Shown here piece after piece: positions 2,327 to 7,275 of a DNA stretch of 64,000 nt. How positions within the stretch are numbered: position 1 is the first letter of the stretch; every line of letters begins with the position of its first letter. A model generated the notes under the pieces. That model searched no databases and was not told where the DNA came from. It saw only the letters and a list, made by a program, of their open reading frames with translations. The translations under genes and the position numbers were made by a program. This DNA is from Anaerolineales bacterium (GTDB lineage: Bacteria; Chloroflexota; Anaerolineae; Anaerolineales; UBA11579), in contig JAJTXV010000004.1 in the NCBI GenBank assembly GCA_021463845.1, positions 1 through 64,000 of the forward strand, given 5' to 3'.

Positions 2327-2469
2327 TATTAGTCCTGTCGAACGTGGTGAGTGGCATTGGAACTAGCTCACTCAGTAGTTCAAGTCTAGTACTTTTGTAG
2401 CTCTACGCCTTTTCTTAGCGGTCATTTGATGACGATCTGTCACTAGCAATTAGTGCAATTTCTAGGCCA

Positions 2470-2508
2470 GGAGTCGAACCTTTCAACCAATTGATTAAGA
2501 GTCTACTG
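2470..2508 (-). repeat. degenerate tRNA-Lys 3'-half remnant
   Basis: This stretch repeats the T-arm, variable loop and anticodon arm of the intact tRNA next door. Bases 2483-2503 are identical to it, but there is one inserted base and several substitutions, and the D-arm and 5' acceptor strand are missing. It cannot fold as a tRNA. It is probably the scar of an earlier integration or excision at the same tRNA. Confidence 0.7.
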
Positions 2509-2518
2509 CGCAGGGGGA

Positions 2519-2544
2519 ACAAAAAAGACGGCCAGCGGCCGTCT
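2519..2544 (-). terminator. intrinsic terminator of tRNA-Lys
   Basis: On the minus strand, AGACGGCC and GGCCGTCT form an 8-bp stem with a 3-nt loop, followed by six T. It starts 3 nt after the tRNA discriminator base. Confidence 0.8.
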
Positions 2545-2547
2545 CAG

Positions 2548-2619
<72 letters not shown>

Positions 2620-2630
2620 GTAGACGCAAG

Positions 2631-2636
2631 ATTATA
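2631..2636 (-). promoter_or_regulatory. -10 box of the element-supplied tRNA-Lys promoter
   Basis: TATAAT on the minus strand, 11 nt before the tRNA 5' end. The displaced native 5' half has the same arrangement (TATAAT at 7293-7288, 12 nt away). No clear -35 box. Confidence 0.6.
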
Positions 2637-2682
2637 ACAAAACTACGGGTAAATCTTGAAACTTTTTGCTAATTTGGAACTT

Positions 2683-3861
2683 TCAGGCTTCCTTTGACGA
2701 AATCGGGTGCAGATCGGGTGCAGTTGCAGACAGCTCGCTCACAGAGATTGGACTAATCAAGTTCTCGACAACATAAGCCGCTTTTTCCTGGCCGCTGGGT
2801 ATCAAGTGGCCGTAAACATCCAGCGTTATGCTCGCCCGTGAATGGCCAAGCCGCCGAGAAACCACGAGCACATCTACTCCATTGTTCAACATCAGAGAAG
2901 CTGCCGTGTGCCGCAAGTCATGAAAGCGGATTTTAGGTAGCCCTGCTCTTTTCAGCAGCGAGCGAAATTCTCTCACCACGTTTGGCGGATTTAGCGGAGT
3001 GCCAACTACTGACGGAAAGACCAACCCGAGGTCTTCCCACTTCTCAGCTCTTACCCGGGCATCCAGCTGAAGGACATAGTGCTGATTGAGCAGGTCAACG
3101 GTTTCATTGCCCAGCTTGATTGTTCGAAATCCGTTCTTTGTTTTGGGAACCACAAACTCAAATCCACCGCCTGGCAATGGCTTTGCCTGCCGTGTAATCC
3201 TCATCGTTTTATTGGCAGAGTCGAAGTCTTCCCATTTCAAGCCGAGAAGCTCGCCTTGTCTTACCCCTGTTGCCAGAACGAAGAAGTAGAAAACAAACTC
3301 ACGGAAGCTTTTAGTCTTTGCCGCGATTAGAAGCCTCTGGATTTGCTCCTCATCCAAAACGCACATTTCCTTTTCCTGTGGTTTTGGTGGACTGGTTGCG
3401 CCATCCGGATTCAAAGAGATTATTCCCAGCTTAACTGCCTGGTTCAAGCTGCGATGAATAACCGCATGAACCATTTGAACTGTTCGAGCTCCCCTGCCGC
3501 TGGCTATGAGCTTGTCGTAAAGCTGCTGAATTCGAGCAGGCCGCAACTCACTGAGCTTCACTTTGCTTAGCTCTGGAAGAACATAGTGATTGACTACCTG
3601 GCTATACTGCTTTAGCGTTCCACGCCGAAGCCTTGCCTCAACGGTCTTCAACCAACCTTCGAGAAACTCGCCATAGGTTATCTTTGAGCTGCTGTATGTA
3701 AGCCCCGCTGAAACCTTCTGATGAGTTTCCCGCAACCAAGCACGACATTCAGCCTGAGACTTGCCAGTGAAGGACAGTCTTCGGCCTTGCAAACTGATTT
3801 GAGCTCGCCAAGTTCCGTTGGCACGCCTGAAAATCGTTCCTTCGTTTTTTCCTCTGGTCAT
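2683..3861 (-). CDS. int: tyrosine recombinase / phage-type integrase
   Basis: 392 residues. It catalyses site-specific integration and excision of the element at tRNA-Lys. An N-terminal arm-binding region (about 1-55) precedes a core-binding SAM-like domain (about 62-160) and the catalytic domain (about 165-370). The catalytic set is present: R201 (ATGVRQGE), K242, H314 and R317 (HDLRHTA), H340 (LGHSR) and nucleophile Y350. Its 3' end overlaps the paired TCGGGTGCA arm-type repeats. ATG with AGGAG 4 nt upstream, and that ribosome-binding site lies in a perfect 9-bp hairpin. It sits 79 bp downstream of the excisionase-like gene and next to attL. Confidence 0.93.
   Translation of the reverse strand: MTRGKNEGTIFRRANGTWRAQISLQGRRLSFTGKSQAECRAWLRETHQKVSAGLTYSSSKITYGEFLEGWLKTVEARLRRGTLKQYSQVVNHYVLPELSKVKLSELRPARIQQLYDKLIASGRGARTVQMVHAVIHRSLNQAVKLGIISLNPDGATSPPKPQEKEMCVLDEEQIQRLLIAAKTKSFREFVFYFFVLATGVRQGELLGLKWEDFDSANKTMRITRQAKPLPGGGFEFVVPKTKNGFRTIKLGNETVDLLNQHYVLQLDARVRAEKWEDLGLVFPSVVGTPLNPPNVVREFRSLLKRAGLPKIRFHDLRHTAASLMLNNGVDVLVVSRRLGHSRASITLDVYGHLIPSGQEKAAYVVENLISPISVSELSATAPDLHPISSKEA
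2703..2722. repeat. paired integrase arm-type sites, left
   Basis: TCGGGTGCA occurs at 2703-2711 and 2714-2722, an 11-bp period. The same 9-mer pair with the same 11-bp period is at 7115-7134 near the other end. Position (about 85 and 105 bp from the cores) and pairing fit lambda-type integrase arm sites. The left pair also encodes part of the integrase C-terminus. Confidence 0.6.
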
Positions 3862-3865
3862 GCTT

Positions 3866-3891
3866 TCTCCTATTTGAAAGTGAATAGGAGA
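3866..3891 (-). promoter_or_regulatory. hairpin sequestering the integrase ribosome-binding site
   Basis: In the leftward mRNA, TCTCCTATT pairs perfectly with AATAGGAGA across an 8-nt loop. The second arm contains the AGGAG ribosome-binding site of the integrase, 4 nt before its ATG. The first arm is therefore an anti-Shine-Dalgarno sequence. Confidence 0.6.
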
Positions 3892-3940
3892 ATGGCAAAT
3901 AGGTTTGCTATTCGGTTAGTAACGTGCAGAAGAGCCAGAG

Positions 3941-4153
3941 TCATTTTATACCCTTCTGCCCGGATTGAGAAACACGCTCTTGAATAAAGCGGTTCAGGTC
4001 TTCTGGCCGCACACGCCTAGCCCCTAGAATTTTGACGGTAGGCAGTATCCCCTTCTGCATGAGTTGATAGGCGAAGGCACGGCTGATATTTAGAATTTTG
4101 GCTACCTGGCTAGCTTTGAGCAGTGGTTCTGGGAAGTGGCTTTCCAAGCTCAT
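3941..4153 (-). CDS. xis: excisionase-like MerR-type helix-turn-helix protein
   Basis: 70 residues. The core (LLKASQVAKILNIS...AYQLMQKGILP...RRVRPEDLNRFI) is the excisionase/MerR-like HTH with its wing, as in Xis proteins that steer integrases towards excision. Some relatives instead act as transcriptional regulators. Its start overlaps the stop of the replication gene (ATGA), so the two are translationally coupled, and integrase follows. Confidence 0.82.
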   Translation of the reverse strand: MSLESHFPEPLLKASQVAKILNISRAFAYQLMQKGILPTVKILGARRVRPEDLNRFIQERVSQSGQKGIK

Positions 4154-5046
4154 TCTTCGCCACCGTCATTCAGCAGAGATTTGAACTTATCCCCGCGCTT
4201 CTTCCTGCCATTCTCTATCAGGGCTTTGAGTGTTCCCTCGCCAATTACATCCACTAAGACGGACAGACTGGGCGAAACCTGCTTGAACATCCATTCAGCT
4301 ATTCTGGAAAGCTCTTTGGTGCGCGCATCTACAATTGTTCTGCCTGCCTTGACATGCTGCTTGACGAACTCCTGCCAATAGGGAGCGTCAATCTCGACAA
4401 AGTCACGAAGATGAGGAATTGACTTGTTCGACCACTCATCAGGCGAGCTGGGCAGCACATCCGCAGCTATCAGGTCAGCGCGTGGCCCTCTGGCCTCCAT
4501 TTCAAGCCGCACTGGCCCGTGATAGTCATAGACGCGCAAATGGCGCGAGGAAGCCCTGCTGCCCAGCCGAAAAATTGAATGGCCGATTTCGCCGTTCTCT
4601 TTTGGGTTGTGCCGGCTGTGCTCAAAGCGGAAGGTTTCCCGCCTCGCCCGTGTAATGAATAAATCCTGTTTGTCTGCTTGATCCAGCATGACAGGCGTAA
4701 ACGGCACACCATCCCAAGCGAGGTCAATTCGCTTAACTCTGAATTTGTCATTGCGCTGTAGGACTAAAAAGAATTCTTGAAGTGTTTCAGGCGGCAACGC
4801 TTCGCAAGCAGTACCAGGCAATTCCAGATGAAAATGCCCTTCTTGTTCATCACCGCTGCTGTGCTGGGGCAGGCAGTACAACTTGGCCGCTGCCAATCCT
4901 TTGAAGATTTTCTTATAGAGCCTGCCGCCGTAACCTTGGTCATGCAAAACGCCTAGACGCGGCTCCAGCCAGGCATGCCAGAGGTTATGAGCGTGGTCTA
5001 GCGACGCCCACACAGTTACTGCGAACCAATGAATATGAAATTCCAT
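4150..5046 (-). CDS. replication initiation protein, Rep_trans-like
   Basis: 298 residues. KRIDLAWDGVPF and HLRVYDYHGPVRLEMEARGPRADLIA resemble the conserved core of the Rep_trans (replication initiation factor) family, which nicks double-strand origins for rolling-circle replication. The C-terminal part (about 200-298) is more variable. ATG with GGAGAG 3 nt upstream. It is the first gene of the rep-xis-int operon and is preceded by a palindrome-rich stretch that could be its origin. An integrative element with its own Rep resembles integrative plasmids. Family assignment is from motifs only. Confidence 0.75.
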   Translation of the reverse strand: MEFHIHWFAVTVWASLDHAHNLWHAWLEPRLGVLHDQGYGGRLYKKIFKGLAAAKLYCLPQHSSGDEQEGHFHLELPGTACEALPPETLQEFFLVLQRNDKFRVKRIDLAWDGVPFTPVMLDQADKQDLFITRARRETFRFEHSRHNPKENGEIGHSIFRLGSRASSRHLRVYDYHGPVRLEMEARGPRADLIAADVLPSSPDEWSNKSIPHLRDFVEIDAPYWQEFVKQHVKAGRTIVDARTKELSRIAEWMFKQVSPSLSVLVDVIGEGTLKALIENGRKKRGDKFKSLLNDGGEE

Positions 5047-5581
5047 GTTCTCTCCAAACCAAACATTTCCACCCCCCTAACAGTATCGGGGGGTGAAATC
5101 CGAATTTCGGAGCGATGTTGATTTGGAGATAGTGCGGCTGGGGATCCCCCTTCCCCGCCGCAGGGCGGGGCCCCTTCCCCCAGCCGCCAGCTCAAAAGAC
5201 AGCAGCCCAAATGCCTATGACCAAACCCGTTACGCTGCTGGGAAACGCAGCGTGTCCGTCTCGCTCCTGCGATAGGAAAACCAAAAGCCCTATCGCATAC
5301 CGCTCGCCGGTATCCGGATGGCAAGTTGAGTAGCTAGCCAAAACTATCTACCTTGATTGCCGACAACTATTCAGTTGTGTTTGGTCTGAATTCACTACGG
5401 GCTCCCGCCTGACCAACTAGGCTACCCGCTTAGGTCGTATCTTTTCAACACACGCCCGACCTATTCGACGTGCCTTGCCCCTAGCCAGCGCCTTCCTAGA
5501 TAGGGCGTATATTAGCAGTCGTAAGCATTATGTCAACCTAGGAAAAGTCCATAGTATCTATCACTTATCTATTTCCCCCCA
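5047..5581. other. non-coding, palindrome-rich region; candidate origin
   Basis: 535 bp without a convincing gene. A stack of palindromes lies upstream of rep. ACCCCCC/GGGGGGT is at 5071-5094 with a 10-nt loop, and TCCGAATTTCGGA is at 5099-5111. GGGGATCCCC is at 5140-5149, and CCCCGCC/GGCGGGG is at 5153-5170. Such hairpins suit a rolling-circle nick site. From 5330 to 5580 the sequence is AT-richer. It includes a tRNA-like D-arm on the minus strand (GCCTAGTTGGTCAGGC, about 5417-5432), but no complete tRNA can be folded. Confidence 0.5.
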
Positions 5582-6154
5582 CTACAGTTTATTCTTCAAG
5601 GAGCCATCCAGAAACGGAGGGTCTACTAGAGCTAGAGCCTCAGCGTATTTTCCAAAGTAAGAAGCTGCTCCACTATTAGGCACATTTTCAAGAATCAATA
5701 GAACCAGTCTATCCAATTGAAAAGTATCTAAACGAAAACTTGCTTCAGTTGAAATAAGCGGGTCGGCGGGAAGATTAATTGATACCAAAAAGGAATCAGG
5801 TCTACCATCGGGATATCTGGTGACATAGAATTTTTGCAGGCTCTGAATGCAATCCGAAAACAGTTGCAAATCCTTTGAAGAAGGCAAATTGTAATTTGCC
5901 CTAAAATCCGCCCACAATCTCCCCAAGTCATGAACATAGGGTTTTTGTCCTAAAGCTTTGACATCAAGGTACATTACGAGACCACTCTTTATAAAGTATT
6001 CGACCGCCATGTGAAGAATCCAGGGGGCGACATCATGCATTTTGTGAGTAAGCGCCAATCTGCCTAGCACGTAATATTGAGCAGCCATAGCAATAAAATT
6101 CAGCGAGTGAAGATAATTCGCTGGTCGAGGAAAGTCAGCTGTACTAGGCTTCAT
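5582..6154 (-). CDS. HEPN-domain protein (element cargo)
   Basis: 190 residues, lower GC than host genes. The helical N-terminal 120 residues look like a HEPN domain: a helix with A-VEYFIKSGL (about 50-60), then VHDLGRL (74-80) and FYVTRYPDG (109-117), the last matching the Y..tRYPD motif of HEPN proteins. Many HEPN proteins are RNases in toxin-antitoxin or anti-phage systems, others only bind nucleotides. A classical Rx4-6H motif is not placed with certainty (RLALTH at 32-37 is the only clear match). The start overlaps the upstream zinc-ribbon gene by 4 bp, so the two form one unit. No MNT-type antitoxin partner is present. Confidence 0.65.
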   Translation of the reverse strand: MKPSTADFPRPANYLHSLNFIAMAAQYYVLGRLALTHKMHDVAPWILHMAVEYFIKSGLVMYLDVKALGQKPYVHDLGRLWADFRANYNLPSSKDLQLFSDCIQSLQKFYVTRYPDGRPDSFLVSINLPADPLISTEASFRLDTFQLDRLVLLILENVPNSGAASYFGKYAEALALVDPPFLDGSLKNKL

Positions 6155-6987
6155 AGTGCCAGTTTAGATAAGTTCATTACTAAGTTGTAAACAAACCACC
6201 CGTCAATCCCGCTAAAAATTTGTGGCTTGGCGCTAGTTGCATCTCGTTGAATGCCAAGGCCATCCGTGTACGGAGAAAAGGAAACGATCTTGGGGTATGC
6301 AACTCGAAAAGATTTGGAACTCCCCGTGAAATAAATATGCTTGTTTGTAATCGCAAAGACACCAGTATCAACGTGCGTTATCTGCGAAGTTACTTGAGGA
6401 GTACCCTTGAAACCTCCAATCCGATAATAAACACCTTTAGCTATTCGGACATTTACTCCAGACGAGCTGCCAGAGTAAGTCGTTCTTGACCTTGGCTCAT
6501 GGTATTCGACTTGGTTGTATACATAAATGATTCTTTCGGATTTGAGCAAGTTAAAGGGCAAGTGTCCTTGGATTCTGACCCTTTCAGAGATTTTGCCTTC
6601 AAGGGTGTCTCTTAAGATTCCTGCTTGAATCAGTTTTGTGTACGAGTTCTCTTCGTTAATATCATCTTGTTTGAGGTCAAAATGCTTCATGTAACTTACG
6701 AGCGCATCTTCTTCGCTTTCTTCGAGCAAATCATCCTCCAAAGCTTCTGCAACAGCAATATCGAATGCGCTTATTAGTATTTCTTTAAAATCTGCTTCGC
6801 TAAGAAAAGAGTTGCTTTTCATCTCTGTGAGCTTGTTTTCAAGTTTCTTTAGTTCAGTCTTTGAAGTCGCGGCTGAAGCAGCAAGGTCTTCTACTTGTGA
6901 TTTCTCGGCTTCGAAAATGACCTGGCACTCCTGATGAACCCCTCTGAGTAAGCCCGCATCTTTCCCACAGAATTTACATTTGGCCAC
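6151..6987 (-). CDS. zinc-ribbon / TerB-like / PH-like protein (element cargo)
   Basis: 278 residues, GTG start with GAGGTG 4 nt upstream. C4-x2-C7 and H18-x2-C21 form a small zinc-binding knuckle. About 25-60 is charged and heptad-like (coiled coil). About 65-110 (ISAFDIAVAEALEDDLLEES) resembles a TerB-like helical domain. About 200-275 contains DTGVFAITNKHIYFTG and a late dgl.i.d pattern, like bacterial PH/GRAM-type domains. No catalytic site is seen, which suggests a sensor or scaffold. It is the first gene of the cargo operon and overlaps the HEPN gene by 4 bp. Domain calls are by eye. Confidence 0.55.
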   Translation of the reverse strand: MAKCKFCGKDAGLLRGVHQECQVIFEAEKSQVEDLAASAATSKTELKKLENKLTEMKSNSFLSEADFKEILISAFDIAVAEALEDDLLEESEEDALVSYMKHFDLKQDDINEENSYTKLIQAGILRDTLEGKISERVRIQGHLPFNLLKSERIIYVYNQVEYHEPRSRTTYSGSSSGVNVRIAKGVYYRIGGFKGTPQVTSQITHVDTGVFAITNKHIYFTGSSKSFRVAYPKIVSFSPYTDGLGIQRDATSAKPQIFSGIDGWFVYNLVMNLSKLAL

Positions 6988-7063
6988 GTATCACCTCAAT
7001 GCTGTTTGGCACTCTACACCCCAAGCCTTTGACACTAATATCTTACTACGCTATACCTCCACG

Positions 7064-7090
7064 ATAAAAAGCGCACCTCATGGGTGCGCT
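7064..7090 (-). terminator. intrinsic terminator guarding the cargo operon
   Basis: Minus strand: AGCGCACC and GGTGCGCT form an 8-bp stem with a 5-nt loop, followed by TTTTTATC. It stops leftward transcription that starts at the displaced tRNA-Lys promoter (7293-7288) before it enters the cargo genes. Confidence 0.75.
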
Positions 7091-7114
7091 CTTCGCCATT
7101 TACCATTCCCCCAA

Positions 7115-7134
7115 TCGGGTGCAATTCGGGTGCA
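7115..7134. repeat. paired integrase arm-type sites, right
   Basis: TCGGGTGCA at 7115-7123 and 7126-7134, same orientation and 11-bp period as the left pair at 2703-2722. Confidence 0.6.
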
Positions 7135-7237
7135 GATAGAAACAGTTGCTGTAGAACTTGTAGACTTTATTGGCTGAATTTACCCGTAAAAACTGGCTTT
7201 GTAGACGACTTAGACCCTATATTCAAGGCTCAAAGCA

Positions 7238-7275
7238 ATTAAGAGTCAACTGCTCTACCATTGAGCTACGGGACC
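7238..7275 (-). repeat. attachment-site repeat, right (attR); orphan tRNA-Lys 5' half
   Basis: 38 bp identical to 2582-2619. This is the original chromosomal tRNA-Lys 5' half, still preceded by a TATAAT box (7293-7288) 12 nt upstream, but cut off from its 3' half by the element. Confidence 0.85.

Follow-up and report, generated by a model that had tools for sequence, protein, structure and literature searches.

Small mobile elements with a Rep_trans initiator and a cargo of restriction-modification or toxin-antitoxin genes are known, and toxin-antitoxin as well as type II restriction-modification cargo on them has been interpreted as serving addiction (PMC5704250). More generally, defence genes are often carried by mobile elements (PMC8791490), and systems that contain TerB (Shango, Bunzi) are, like HEPN systems, known as defences from experiment (PMC10952713, PMC10250203). 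Genes of HEPN-T proteins cluster with restriction-modification operons, and there is a HEPN-T variant in which the histidine of the Rx4-6H motif is missing and another conserved histidine is present, possibly as part of a different active site (Anantharaman et al. 2013, PMC3710099).

The stretch of DNA studied here (64,000 bp from an Anaerolineales bacterium; in the following, the window) contains an integrated element of 4,656 bp, which is inserted at a tRNA gene and carries two genes, designated B and A. Its target is the tRNA-Lys(CTT) gene at 2547-2619 (minus strand; ARAGORN, Rfam), which is intact and the only RNA matched in the Rfam scan. Perfect direct repeats of 38 bp, corresponding to the 5' half of this tRNA, are situated at 2582-2619 and 7238-7275 and are spaced by 4,656 bp. 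In two genomes of the same genus (G687 and G698) the tRNA-Lys is intact and the insertion is absent, and the joined flanks of the window align with these empty sites through the junction, so that the element boundaries are fixed. Three genes of the element lie to the left of the cargo, all on the minus strand: a tyrosine integrase (2683-3861; PF00589, E 3e-28), an HTH_17/AlpA-like protein that is either an Xis-like excisionase or a regulator (3941-4153; PF12728, E 1.7e-12), and a Rep_trans rolling-circle initiator, possibly a MobT-like relaxase (4150-5046; PF02486, E 2.7e-8), whose family profile matches PDB entry 4cij at 4e-14. With its integrase, att sites, Rep_trans initiator and empty site elsewhere, the element thus presents the features of an integrative mobilizable element of the Rep_trans/MobT type. 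Its conserved right end (7090-7237, delimited by border alignment) contains a segment (7113-7145) with 82% similarity to 2701-2733 in the left part, and the two may, judged by their sequence, be integrase arm sites. Beside the intact tRNA-Lys lies a partial tRNA-Lys-like repeat (2469-2509; it matches 2570-2597 at 96% over 28 bp), which may be what a previous integration event left behind. Three further Rep-bearing elements, all broken at contig ends, exist in the same genome (L132, G000:C14:44-937; L133, G000:C1:198-1100; L131, G000:C18:75097-75984); two of them are 87% identical, and in these two a large serine-recombinase-like gene following Rep replaces the tyrosine integrase.

Apart from B and A, both on the minus strand, the interval from the Rep gene to the distal att site is free of genes. 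B (6151-6987, 278 aa) comes first and is followed by A (5582-6154, 190 aa), the two overlapping by 4 bp (6151-6154, ATGA); the GTG start of B is supported by homologues that align from residue 1. The sole common leader is the segment upstream of B (6988-7089), which lies inside the cargo slot described below and in which no consensus promoter was found. Scans for promoters and terminators performed no better than on shuffled sequence. The GC content amounts to 42.1% in A and 42.2% in B, compared with 50-52% in the integrase and Rep genes and 55-67% in most of the chromosome flanking to the right. The extent of the operon (5582-6987), the 4-bp overlap, the single leader and the low GC content relative to the host, as given in a preliminary description made from the letters alone, are hence all borne out. 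Neither a close B nor a close A occurs in any other genome of the sampled order, from which it follows that the cassette is a recent and patchy acquisition.

The position of the two genes within the element is that of an exchangeable cargo. In G722, a genome of the same genus, the same element occupies the same tRNA (window 2455-5475 against L155 3898-6918; 94.8% identity over 3,025 bp); homology ends at 5475 and restarts at 7090, such that the flanks are homologous on both sides and the cargo slot alone (5476-7089) differs. This copy keeps the integrase, Xis-like and Rep genes and lacks A and B, which shows the latter to be, in accordance with the earlier view, the only genes of the element not needed for its maintenance. 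Instead of B-A, its slot contains a 172-aa protein, then a 4-fold beta-flower protein (PF21784, E 3e-10; both within L155:6974-8160), and a 64-aa ORF. A corresponding exchange is found at tRNA-Arg(TCG), where the cores of L156 and L158 are 97.6% identical over 2,998 bp and the cargo differs (a 191-aa versus a 342-aa gene), and where L159 (core 74.5%) bears a third cargo. When the borders of five elements are aligned, the att-side ends are conserved and the Rep-side ends are conserved within each group, with an unrelated interior. B-A is therefore one allele of the cargo slot. The single-gene cargos (L156:7037-7612, 191 aa, and L158:10560-11588, 342 aa) match neither Pfam nor PADLOC and are candidates for unknown defence genes.

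Sister elements, traced via the Rep protein, show the same gene order, and att repeats were found in eleven elements including that of the window. Probable type II restriction-modification is present in the slot of three of the ten sisters (raw count): L159 carries a NotI restriction endonuclease and a D12 methylase, together with a ThsB-type TIR protein and a membrane protein that match both parts of PADLOC PDC-M50; in L130 an MvaI/BcnI restriction endonuclease is accompanied by an N6/N4 methylase and an HTH protein; and in L129 a PD-(D/E)XK nuclease is combined with a D12 methylase. The remaining cargos are regulatory or unrecognised, and a recognisable complete defence system is absent from the slot in seven of the ten. 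L162 has an MT-A70 methylase and an HTH protein. Taken together, the slot exchange and the restriction-modification and TIR cargo of the sisters support, as context, an accessory conflict (defence) function of B-A. The same Rep core also occurs in larger sister elements (L127:8270-15166, L164:4182-13214, L163:3057-11803), whose length, where it could be delimited, is about 9 kb. Their genes for a P-loop ATPase, for a secreted protein rich in Pro and Thr and for membrane proteins give them a filamentous-phage-like look. An identification as inovirus satellites was not upheld, as PF05707 (Zot) was matched in none of 12 genomes, Pfam yielded only weak nSTAND matches, and phage and viral collections and PDB gave none; the idea is kept as a lead.

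Concerning protein B, a zinc knuckle of the form Cx2C...Hx2C (C4, C7, H18, C21) is invariant in all eleven homologues, in which the C-terminal region is also strongly conserved; this is in keeping with the zinc ribbon of the preliminary description. No Pfam domain was matched. The structural model (from six sequences; pLDDT 71, moderate) is helical in its N-terminal part and ends in a barrel, the latter (residues 142-278) matching PH/GRAM-like domains in VIA-align with Z-scores of 13.0 (pICln), 12.6 (MTMR2), 12.3 (BBS5) and 11.5 (Vps36) and, for the first three, an rmsd of 2.2-2.9 over 94-98 residues. The modelled C-terminal domain is a PH-like barrel with a C-terminal helix, and its PH/GRAM-like nature, anticipated earlier, is supported at this level (Z about 12). 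A TerB-like character, likewise proposed, is only suggested for the helical middle: PF05099 did not match B, and a single relative among eleven reached E 0.033. In its overall make-up B looks non-enzymatic, in line with the partner without catalytic site that had been described.

Relatives of B were found in 15 of 298 genomes at class level and 38 of 400 at phylum level (the window's own included), and furthermore in Zetaproteobacteria, Calditrichaceae, Spirochaetales and a marine Bacteroidota-type isolate. Temperate phages contain more distant relatives, lysogeny-control regions of phages are among the settings of the family, and viral contigs contain one solo relative. Ter genes occur next to B relatives (L043), with a TerD-TerF gene 5 bp downstream of a relative on a Moraxella plasmid, and on a Prevotella plasmid a relative forms part of a kinase/VWA/PP2C cluster. 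In distant taxa, genes of Ion_trans channels lie directly beside B-family genes (L020:5721-7279, L025:4894-6434, L105:6423-8380), and this recurring adjacency could hint at a membrane-linked function of B. An RNase as general partner of B was considered and rejected: the nearby NYN (L027), PIN (L028) and HepT (L076) genes represent different families in different genomes, the NYN and PIN genes are not directly coupled to the B relatives, and HepT adjoins an AbrB-like gene and may thus belong to a separate toxin-antitoxin cluster.

Protein A is probably a divergent member of the HEPN-T group. Its own match to PF05168 is sub-threshold (E 0.005; 17.4 bits, cut-off 22), whereas a relative with 27% identity (L039:6731-7153) reaches E 6.3e-26; a third relative (L166), whose genome belongs to the same taxonomic family, adjoins a radA-like gene. 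Common to all three are E52-x3-K56, H75 (the HDL histidine) and R113 (RY), which correspond to the Ex3[KR] motif and to the conserved histidine and arginine of the putative alternative site of HEPN-T proteins. The canonical Rx4-6H motif is absent from the C-terminal helix of A, where R113 is followed by YPDGRPD without a histidine, and the only R-x4-H (R32-H37) is located after helix 1. The weak single-sequence model (pLDDT 67) displays four helices followed by strands; a fold search with it returned the HEPN structures 1o3u, 8xeh and 8xdj at E 0.8-2.3, without a significant match, and a second look with VIA listed other helical proteins. A match of A to a xanthine-dehydrogenase-like protein (L040) was discarded as spurious, and viral contigs contained no relatives of A. 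The HEPN identity assigned in the preliminary description is thus probable by way of the relative and the motifs (Ex3K, the HDL histidine, TRYPD), the last of which would allow an RNase activity; an RNase effector of canonical form is not supported, since A lacks the corresponding motif.

The relative of A in L039 follows an MNT-like gene, and this favours the main rival to a defence role, namely that A acts as a HEPN toxin with B, in the place of MNT, as its antitoxin, so that the module would mainly prevent loss of the element and affect phages secondarily. A small replicating element that bears a pair of overlapping genes would fit such a function, as would the reading of similar cargo on Rep_trans elements as addiction (PMC5704250). 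However, B is larger than typical antitoxins and has domains of the sensor type, its relatives stand alone with no toxin, and several of the slot's cargos do not resemble toxin-antitoxin genes. We consider addiction as the principal role rather unlikely, although the two roles are not exclusive; membership in HEPN-MNT itself was rejected, as the element contains no MNT nucleotidyltransferase gene and the partner of A is B. Distinctly less probable is a stress or envelope module, with B as a Ter-type sensor of membranes or ligands and A as an RNA- or nucleotide-binding HEPN adaptor devoid of RNase activity. The missing Rx4-6H motif and the Ion_trans (L020, L025, L105) and Ter (L043) genes next to B relatives would be in accordance with it, whereas the histidine and arginine of the alternative site are kept in A and the slots of the sisters are rich in defence genes.

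The combination of B with A is confined to the window as far as the sampled genomes are concerned. Because the Pfam scan of neighbours of B loci listed the 25 commonest families, a scan with the A profile was added, and among 5,167 ORFs in the surroundings of about 60 B-family loci no A-like one was present, the loci retrieved for A itself set aside; the two nearest relatives of A adjoin the MNT and the radA-like gene, not B. A pair recurring in other genomes, for which the preliminary description had proposed a search, was therefore not recovered, and homologues were never seen paired, which weighs against the pair alone though not against the wider claim of a defence cargo. What stands of that claim is that the genes form an accessory module, carried by a mobile element and exchanged as a unit in a slot that holds restriction-modification and TIR genes in sisters; the pairing is not conserved in the sampled genomes, and the canonical RNase motif is absent. 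With a pairing conserved nowhere else and variable neighbours of the B relatives, one might regard A and B as functionally unrelated passengers acquired jointly by chance, but the coupled overlap, the single leader, the equally low GC content and the fact that A and B constitute the entire content of a slot exchanged as a unit make this very improbable.

From its context, B-A is probably a new defence or addiction module. With moderate confidence, it may be read as an accessory conflict cassette, in which B as sensor or regulator and A as HEPN-T effector are coupled in a defence of abortive type. Such a cassette would occupy the cargo slot of the tRNA-Lys element and act against phages or other mobile elements. 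B and A would be co-produced from one leader by coupled translation; B, with its zinc knuckle, possibly TerB-like helical part and PH/GRAM-like domain, would be a non-enzymatic sensor or regulator of infection or envelope stress, perhaps in direct interaction with A, which would then arrest growth by cleaving or binding RNA, with H75 and R113, together with E52 and K56, as its alternative active site. The swaps of the slot at tRNA-Lys and tRNA-Arg, the restriction-modification and PDC-M50 genes of the sisters, the link of A to PF05168 and its alternative-site motifs, the PH/GRAM-like B, its relatives beside Ter genes, in a kinase/VWA/PP2C cluster and in lysogeny regions of phages, and the presence of TerB and HEPN domains in tested defences argue for the conflict cassette; the lack of a second pair and of a PADLOC match, the absence of Rx4-6H, the weak model of A and the seven sisters without a recognisable complete system argue against it. 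More tentatively, and with some doubt, we propose an undescribed two-gene system, whose zinc-knuckle/TerB-like/PH-GRAM sensor would control a HEPN-T effector with a non-canonical active site. The elements that carry it, mostly of 4-6 kb and integrated at tRNA genes, would form a family in which defence cassettes are exchanged at a single fixed slot, the unknown cargos of which would be enriched for new defence systems.

The slot constitutes a clean natural experiment, as elements that are almost identical and share their tRNA target differ in their cargo alone. Several cargos of the element family being recognisable defence systems, the unassigned ones (B-A, the beta-flower pair, the 191-aa and 342-aa genes) become ranked and testable candidates. 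An active A would bear on the proposal of an RNase function via another site without Rx4-6H (PMC3710099), and would join a defined effector to a sensor that has a PH domain and is possibly of Ter type.

Compared with described systems, A resembles HEPN-T proteins (PF05168) of the AF0298/TM0613 type in its Ex3K, HDL histidine and RY(P), and recalls HEPN-MNT toxin-antitoxin pairs through the MNT-like neighbour of its nearest relative; it differs from both in its greater length (190 aa), in falling itself below the Pfam cut-off and, as to the latter pairs, in having B as partner. The possible TerB-like segment of B, and its relatives adjoining TerD-TerF and a kinase/VWA/PP2C cluster, resemble the TerB systems (Shango, Bunzi) and Ter proteins, whereas B-A lacks partners of helicase or ATPase type, Ter genes are absent from the window, and the TerB assignment is not significant. 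In PADLOC-DB 2.0.0, A has no match and the best match of B is at E 0.095. The PDC-M50/Thoeris ThsB-type pair and type II restriction-modification occupy the same slot in L159, L129 and L130 with proteins unrelated to A and B, and were used solely as evidence on the slot. The element as a whole is similar in its gene content to IME_Sag2603_tRNAlys (PMC5704250), sharing the small size, the tRNA-Lys target, the tyrosine integrase and the Rep_trans initiator, whereas it resides in different bacteria, has no coupling protein and is putative in its mobilization. New here are the combination of B with A and its position in a slot that exchanges its cargo.
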